A stretch of 64,000 bases of DNA from Actinoallomurus spadix (GTDB taxonomy: Bacteria > Actinomycetota > Actinomycetes > Streptosporangiales > Streptosporangiaceae), in NCBI RefSeq assembly GCF_024055725.1, contig NZ_JAMXMX010000003.1, positions 186,001-250,000 of the forward strand, given 5' to 3'. Of the stretch, positions 48,777 to 49,500 are shown in pieces. The notes beneath the pieces are model-generated. The model had not been told where the DNA came from. It did no database searches and was given only the letters and a program-made list of their open reading frames with translations. Both the position numbers and the translations under genes were made by a program. Within the stretch, counting starts at the first letter, position 1, and every line of letters starts with the position of its first letter.

Positions 48777-49106
48777 TCACGCCGAGGACAGGTCGTGCTC
48801 CTCGGAGGCCTCCAGGCCGGTCTCGATGACGGCCGTCATGATGCGGGCGAGCCGGTCGGCGCCCAGCCGCGGCGCGCGCGAGGCCATCGCCTCGACGATC
48901 TCGCGTTCGCGCCCGGGATCCCGGCCGGCGAAGCCGCCGACCGGCTTGAGCCGCTGCACGGTGGCCGCCAGTTCCGCACGGCGTTCCAGCAGCGTCGCCA
49001 GCGCCGCGTCGATCCGGTCGATCGCCGCCCGGGCACCGGGAATCGTCTCCGGCATGTCGTCGTCCGTCAGGGCCGCGAGAAGCGCCGCCTTGGCCTGCGG
49101 GTCCAT
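48777..49106 (-). CDS. Chorismate mutase, AroQ type
   Basis: 109 residues, all helical. It converts chorismate to prephenate, the first step towards Phe and Tyr. The family pattern is IPGARAAIDRIDAALATLLERRAELAATVQRLK, then FAGRDPGREREIVEAM with the catalytic Arg and Glu/Lys-type residues. ATG 49106 is fixed by AAGGAG 6 nt upstream; the longer frame to 49148 has none. The transcript begins with a 20-codon aromatic leader peptide and an intrinsic terminator, described separately. Confidence 0.9.
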   Translation of the reverse strand: MDPQAKAALLAALTDDDMPETIPGARAAIDRIDAALATLLERRAELAATVQRLKPVGGFAGRDPGREREIVEAMASRAPRLGADRLARIMTAVIETGLEASEEHDLSSA

Positions 49107-49155
49107 CGGAATCTCCTTCCGGGGCGGGCCCGGAGCCGAGCCGCCCACGCGCGGT

Positions 49156-49192
49156 GGAAAAGCGAAAGGCAGAGCCCACGGGGCTCTGCCTT
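49156..49192 (-). terminator. Attenuator terminator before chorismate mutase
   Basis: In transcript sense AAGGCAGAGCCC (49192-49181), loop CGT, GGGCTCTGCCTT (49177-49166), then TCGCTTTTCC. This is a perfect 12-bp stem with a triloop and a U-rich tail, an intrinsic terminator that is rare in this genome. It lies 22 nt after the leader-peptide stop and 60 nt before the mutase ATG. Confidence 0.8.
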
Positions 49193-49213
49193 CGGCCGGC
49201 TCGGGGTCGTCGC

Positions 49214-49276
49214 TCAGGTCGCGTCGACCGGCTCACCCGGAGCCGGCTGCATAAACCCGAAATAACGACGATCCAC
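49214..49276 (-). CDS. Aromatic leader peptide of chorismate mutase attenuator
   Basis: A 20-codon frame from GTG 49276 encodes MDRRYFGFMQPAPGEPVDAT, with Tyr5, Phe6 and Phe8 within the first eight codons. TACCCT lies exactly 6 nt upstream, so the mRNA is probably leaderless. A terminator and then chorismate mutase follow. Stalling at Tyr/Phe codons when these amino acids are scarce would let transcription continue. GCCGGCTC in codons 10-13 can pair with GAGCCGG in codons 15-17 or with GAGCCGGC (49202-49195) just before the terminator. This is my inference from layout; no homologue is known to me. Confidence 0.65.
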   Translation of the reverse strand: MDRRYFGFMQPAPGEPVDAT

Positions 49277-49282
49277 GCGCCC

Positions 49283-49288
49283 AGGGTA
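49283..49288 (-). promoter_or_regulatory. -10 element TACCCT of chorismate mutase leader
   Basis: TACCCT is followed by 6 nt and GTG 49276 of the leader peptide. Confidence 0.5.
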
Positions 49289-49500
49289 GCCGTGGCGGCC
49301 GGAGGATCGCCACCCAGCGGAATCCTCGTCTCGGTCGATGAGACGAAGAGCCTTCCGGGAAAGGTCATCTCCGGGTGAACCGATGCCCTTCCCGCGGCCG
49401 GCGCCGTTCTGTCGCAGTGCGGGCGTATACAGGGACGGTGGTCCACGGTGCCCGCCACGGCGGTCGCCGGTCACCGGAGCGACGGACTCGAAGGGTCACC

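Follow-up and report, generated by a model that had tools for sequence, protein, structure and literature searches.

The closest described system is the aroR leader of Corynebacterium glutamicum, in which a small ORF containing Phe and Tyr codons precedes a gene of the aromatic pathway. According to a passage in PMC11802643, which credits the result to Neshat 2014, the AroR peptide contains Phe-Tyr-Phe and transcription of the aroF operon is raised by Phe limitation but not by Tyr limitation. The aroR leader is also named in an excerpt of an sRNA screen (PMC4046766). In Escherichia coli, the pheL-pheA pair places a Phe leader peptide ahead of a chorismate mutase that is bifunctional with prephenate dehydratase, as outlined in the same text (PMC11802643).

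Among actinobacteria, excerpts of PMC1262725, PMC8079986 and PMC13236596 describe attenuators of trp, leu and ilv genes with small leader ORFs; U-tailed terminators are present in some of them and lacking in others, and the leader ORFs are leaderless in several cases (PMC8079986). These attenuators serve other amino acids, and no Phe or Tyr leader is listed in the excerpts. For ilvB1 of Mycobacterium tuberculosis, a ribosome at the stop codon was proposed to mask approximately 26 nt and block the antiterminator (passage in PMC13236596). The relevant passage of Seliverstov 2005 (PMC1262725) reports no conserved structures beyond the Trp, Cys and Leu pathways and the ileS T-boxes. Eight leaders are given in the available portion of the Streptomyces lividans reannotation, none of them for Phe or Tyr, and the excerpt of PMC4633059 has no aroG or chorismate entry.

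The locus described here is similar to aroR in that a small ORF bearing Phe and Tyr codons leads into a gene of the aromatic pathway, and in its proposed signal, Phe limitation being the signal reported for aroR in the passage above. It differs in the controlled gene, which is aroF (DAHP synthase) for aroR and chorismate mutase here; the likeness was drawn from the published description of aroR. It shares with pheL-pheA, going by the excerpt, a Phe attenuator placed ahead of a chorismate mutase, but it has one to three aromatic codons, a leaderless-type ORF and another RNA layout, and kinship is not implied. A literature search covering titles and the starts of abstracts, with few subscription journals, found no leader of this sort in front of chorismate mutase genes of actinomycetes. 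The earlier note's statement that no Phe/Tyr attenuator had been described at this gene in actinomycetes held within that search, while the kind itself was already known from aroR-aroF and pheL-pheA. We conclude that the element is of the same kind as aroR and that its target gene, breadth and architecture are new.

The leader and the chorismate mutase gene

The window is the whole stretch of 64,000 nucleotides of Actinoallomurus spadix DNA that was analysed. The features of the element in the window, each with its basis, are as follows.

49283..49288, minus strand: -10-like box TACCCT, ending 6 nt 5' of the GTG (sequence)
49214..49276, minus strand: leader ORF VDRRYFGFMQPAPGEPVDAT, GTG to TGA (sequence and related ORFs in relatives)
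49253..49255, minus strand: Phe8 codon TTT, proposed sensing codon (codon counts in leaders versus genes)
49236..49247, minus strand: arm A GCCGGCTCCGGG (own-versus-swapped test and pair counts)
49227..49234, minus strand: arm B GAGCCGGT, partner of A (own-versus-swapped z -3.9)
49195..49206, minus strand: arm C CCCCGAGCCGGC, partner of A, directly 5' of the hairpin (covariation)
49158..49192, minus strand: hairpin T with an interrupted U-rich tail, presumed terminator (sequence)
49136..49143, minus strand: CGGCTCGG, possible but weak partner of C 3' of T, termed A-prime (p 0.019)
48777..49106, minus strand: chorismate mutase gene, type II, 109 aa (PF01817, E 6.5e-14)

The leader starts with GTG at 49276-49274 and stops with TGA at 49216-49214, and its 20 residues include Tyr5 (TAT), Phe6 (TTC) and Phe8 (TTT). 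The leaderless-looking GTG and the peptide with these three residues were present, as first proposed, and lie on the minus strand. The position of the TACCCT box fits a leaderless start at the GTG. A TAnnnT box 5-8 nt before the start was found in 105 of 106 related leaders versus 18 of 7592 background ATG or GTG codons, a count in which the choice of leader starts favoured those with such a box. Neither consensus scan reported a -35 partner or a sigma-70 promoter at the leader. Neshat et al. in 2014 are said to have found the C. glutamicum leaders of the aroR type to be leaderless; the box and the Phe codon at the last position (see below) give a leaderless-type ORF with Phe/Tyr codons here as well. 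A short conserved ORF with codons for products of the pathway is also what would be expected of an attenuator.

The mutase gene starts with ATG at 49106 behind its own upstream GGAAGGAG, and a chorismate mutase with its own ribosome-binding site behind the hairpin had been predicted. The mutase of Actinoallomurus soli (L002) is 92% identical to that of the window. Many relatives carry the mutase inside an open frame of 300-400 aa, and in the two that were checked (L001 and L003) it forms the C-terminal part of a DAHP-synthase-like fusion (PF00793 and PF01817). The mutase stands alone in the window and in A. soli, and the leader was found before either form; the window mutase looks like a shortened form that retained the leader. 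A paralogue of the N-terminal DAHP-synthase-like domain of the fusion, 43% identical, lies at G000:C33:380051-380518 (L203), approximately 145 kb from the window mutase on the same contig. No match to the class I DAHP synthase of family f4 was found in the genome of the window.

Distribution and codon content of the leader

A mutase match was present in 97 of 150 genomes of the family search, and the best-scoring 30 chorismate mutase loci were examined. The earlier note had made its reading depend on conservation in relatives, and there the leader survives at 25 of these 30 loci. It was absent from four (L021, L032, L035 and L037), and the fifth locus without a leader, L018, begins near a contig end. 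At L032, L035 and L037 a TAATCT box lies 7 nt ahead of the apparent start of the fusion gene, which looks as though it had turned leaderless upon loss of the attenuator.

A covariance model (R1) built from 30 leaders matched 79 of 394 genomes of the class Actinomycetes at a threshold of E up to 0.01. After pooling of these matches with the earlier loci, a total of 109 leaders from the class were parsed. Almost all of them precede a gene for aromatic amino acid synthesis: 66 lie before a chorismate mutase or the DAHP-synthase-like/chorismate mutase fusion, 40 before a class I DAHP synthase and three before neither. Two of these three (L113 and L130) are at contig ends and L093 is doubtful. At L093 the model match is weak; the leader reads MLTRRVYPNGSGVSRSPARP and comes with a box of the leaderless type and a strong hairpin, but no gene for chorismate mutase or DAHP synthase follows, and the locus may represent a different sort of leader. 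Another six loci (L133-L138) were discarded after inspection by eye.

Eleven genomes of family f19 have two leaders, one at the DAHP synthase and one at the mutase; in two others a second leader is present and its gene falls beyond the contig end. In family f4, the DAHP synthase was present in 100 of 121 genomes; the leader was found at 28 of the 30 loci examined (L166 and L168 are without) and in all 20 further upstream regions, which were hand-picked at one or two per genus. A second model (R2), built from 81 leaders, matched 14 of 396 genomes of the phylum, 11 of them inside the class and including the window's own genome. The three matches outside the class were not leaders on inspection. 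The genome of the window carries a single element, the next best model matches being no leaders. No Rfam model, T-box included, matched the window at gathering score; three sub-threshold matches fell in 49050-49350 with E 0.4-0.98.

The last aromatic codon before arm A was TTT in 103 of 107 leaders, TTC in three and TAT in one. In genes TTT is rare: it makes up 3 of the 442 Phe codons counted in the downstream genes, which were picked mechanically, and none of the 88 in five genes of the window. Every other Phe codon in the leaders was TTC (41/41), so TTT is specific to the last position. For Tyr, TAT made up 89 of 106 codons in leaders versus 9 of 251 in genes. Related species contribute to the leader counts, which are not independent observations.

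The last residue was Phe in all 65 mutase leaders. Position -3 was Tyr in 39 of them and position -2 was Phe in 31; in the remaining leaders these two positions held His, Ser, Cys, Leu or other residues. These codons support Phe as the constant sensor, read through the nearly invariant rare TTT, with Tyr frequent but probably replaceable. Of the Tyr/Phe sensing first suggested, the Phe part is supported and the Tyr part has to be loosened. Up to the last Phe, Trp occurred in none of 65 chorismate mutase leaders versus 25 of 39 DAHP-synthase leaders, and at the f4 DAHP-synthase loci the best leader of each contains Trp by eye. Since DAHP synthase also feeds Trp synthesis and the mutase does not, the codons follow the pathway branch. 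In six relatives (L043, L044, L045, L047, L049 and L050) a one-base shift between A and B altered the peptide tail, which reads PAPGSRS and the like, with arms A, B and C unchanged. Selection thus seems to act on the RNA and the first codons and not on the tail peptide.

Alternative helices and the hairpin

On the minus strand, arms A and B lie in this order inside the ORF, C lies after the stop codon and the hairpin begins two bases beyond C. Arm A was also written as GCCGGCTC, starting at 49247, and arm C as GAGCCGGC, with its last base at 49195. The region 49110-49288 folded more stably than all of 200 shuffles (z -4.03). An A/B motif with at most three mismatches is expected by chance 0.69 times per window and was present in 50 of 100 shuffles; as far as sequence comparison can judge, it is conservation and not the local A/B motif which lifts the element above chance.

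Pair counts for A:C showed 88.8% of 891 cells paired, and in 8 of the 12 pairs both partners had changed. A total of 38 cells were double-changed, a number not reached in any of 500 shuffles and higher than in the slid controls, and this compensatory change supports helix A:C. Comparison of own with swapped partners in 24 cluster representatives gave z -7.7 for A:C (-4.5 with an 11-nt arm) and z -3.9 for A:B. The advantage of own partners was weak when the 3' half of A was paired with C (p 0.016), and likewise for C and the 60 nt that follow T (p 0.019). Two control regions gave no signal in the same test.

Duplex prediction in 153 leaders placed the last Phe codon 3-7 nt 5' of A and gave an A-to-C gap with a median of 25 nt (17-37 nt at 5-95%), which is approximately the size of one ribosome and contains the stop codon. 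When 13 nt from the Phe codon were masked, the mean energy of the A/B hairpin changed from -16.3 to -4.9 kcal/mol, and that of the window leader from -14.9 to -6.2 kcal/mol. Under this mask the 3' half of A with C in the window keeps -9.8 kcal/mol, the full A:C having -26.2 kcal/mol. The alternative arms were expected to span the leader and to abut the hairpin, which they do, and the switching arms covary in relatives.

Hairpin T has a perfect stem of 12 bp, AAGGCAGAGCCC-CGT-GGGCTCTGCCTT, at 49192-49166, followed by the interrupted U tail UUUCGCUUUU. The perfect 12-bp terminator with a U-rich tail of the earlier note is accordingly right in its stem, while its tail is interrupted and the hairpin was reported by neither consensus terminator scan. 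The scarcity of U-tailed terminators in the genome, as stated in the earlier note, was examined over 9 kb, where two were found versus 1.7 expected. Across the leaders, a hairpin of at least 6 bp with at least 4 T near its end was present in 92 of 107 and lacking in 15. By eye, seven f19 leaders and L114 among these 15 have a hairpin with a poorer tail, and L092, L095 and L128 have instead a C hairpin in which C is the 5' arm. The remaining four, L121, L127, L130 and L132, are second, mutase leaders of family f19; they retain the ORF together with all three arms and show no clear T hairpin.

At equilibrium the probability of T averaged 0.96-0.97 in all four ribosome states (90 leaders), and no conserved segment competing for the T stem was found among related leaders. 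The arms expected to switch covary as described, but classical antiterminator logic is not evident from these foldings. Arm C stops short of T in the window and in most relatives, and no arm is shared. The complementary triples through which antiterminator and terminator are linked in trp attenuators, as described in an excerpt of PMC1262725, were not seen here. The YFWF group (16 loci) is arranged differently, with C being the 5' arm of the hairpin itself. The hairpin tail is T7 in L177 and T6 after a CCCCG/CGGGG stem in L185, and this predicted layout is the classical arrangement; other members of the group have no U run. The hairpin prevails at equilibrium in most of the 16 loci, the exceptions being L171 and L172 in the ribosome-free state and L186 when the ribosome is placed three codons upstream. 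Taken across relatives, comparison bears out the ORF, its leaderless-type start, the rare Phe codon, A:B, A:C, the hairpin and the gene context.

Proposed mechanism and competing explanations

The reading we prefer, with a probability of about 0.8, is that a ribosome-mediated attenuator sensing charged tRNA-Phe, and less strictly tRNA-Tyr, controls the chorismate mutase gene. This is the attenuator first proposed for the gene, now with conservation in relatives and covarying arms. Transcription would begin at the GTG, where a ribosome would initiate directly. With ample Phe, the ribosome would reach the stop codon between A and C and preclude A:C around itself; after its release A:B would form and transcription would stop at T. 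The published ilvB1 model likewise has, in the passage of PMC13236596, a ribosome at the stop codon blocking the antiterminator. With scarce Phe, the ribosome would stall at the rare TTT and cover the 5' half of A, so disrupting A:B, while the 3' half of A could still pair with C and transcription would pass T into the mutase gene. We infer that the ribosome stalls, in which direction the response goes, that transcription ends at T and, most of all, that A:C leads on to read-through past T. In that step A:C may act either by kinetic competition, by adjacent action without overlap or through a second step involving Rho or translation.

The indifference of T to ribosome position at equilibrium and the poor U tail in part of the leader family would also suit control that uses the same sensing and acts mainly on translation, or via Rho, in place of intrinsic termination at T. 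A:B or A:C would then be followed by C with A-prime, or by A-prime with a segment near the Shine-Dalgarno sequence, and this chain of arms would expose or hide the mutase start, T being a spacer or a leaky terminator. The preference of C for its own 60 nt after T (p 0.019) points the same way. We consider this explanation clearly less probable, given that blocking A-prime produced no consistent change of Shine-Dalgarno accessibility (81 leaders in 22 clusters, p 0.21), that A-prime compared with random blocks gave p 0.95 for that accessibility, and that a change of transcription is what the passage in PMC11802643 reports for aroR. Arrest of the leader ribosome by the nascent peptide, a metabolite or a drug, and not by lack of charged tRNA, could account for the peptide start R-Y-F-x-F and the PAPGEPV tail being alike in many family members. 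It is very improbable in view of the six relatives with altered tails and kept arms, the selected rare TTT and TAT codons, and the presence of Trp codons with DAHP synthase and none with chorismate mutase. A chance ORF before an ordinary terminator that shields the mutase from upstream transcription would be compatible with the frequency of the A/B motif alone and with the failure of the hairpin in the consensus scans, but conservation across the class, covariation and codon statistics refute it as far as comparison reaches and leave it a negligible probability.

Beyond the attenuator reading preferred here, a tentative and rather doubtful extension is that a single ancestral leader RNA was distributed across the aromatic pathway in the class, came to sit on both DAHP synthase and chorismate mutase and had its codons retuned for each branch, the switch working on an adjacent terminator without overlap, a step undescribed for trp-type attenuators. 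If true, the retuning would place Trp at the common first step and none at the Phe/Tyr branch point. The element itself would enlarge one described attenuator, aroR, to a large regulon that controls the entry into synthesis of the aromatic amino acids and, judged by the copy in the window, is not represented in Rfam. The pathway supplies precursors for actinomycete natural products. The family would also offer a natural series in which codon content tracks the pathway branch, and it would pose the mechanistic question of how alternative helices control a terminator without contact to its stem. Strains of C. glutamicum have already been engineered by replacing aroR, according to an excerpt of PMC7356990. 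Two f4 genomes of 2.4-2.7 Mb from one genus carry the leaders MRNWRFYFEWGSGR and MRMWRFYFSKAPEAETS, which read WRFYF and by eye have A, C and T in common with the present layout; they agree with the description of aroR, and we infer that the genus is Corynebacterium.
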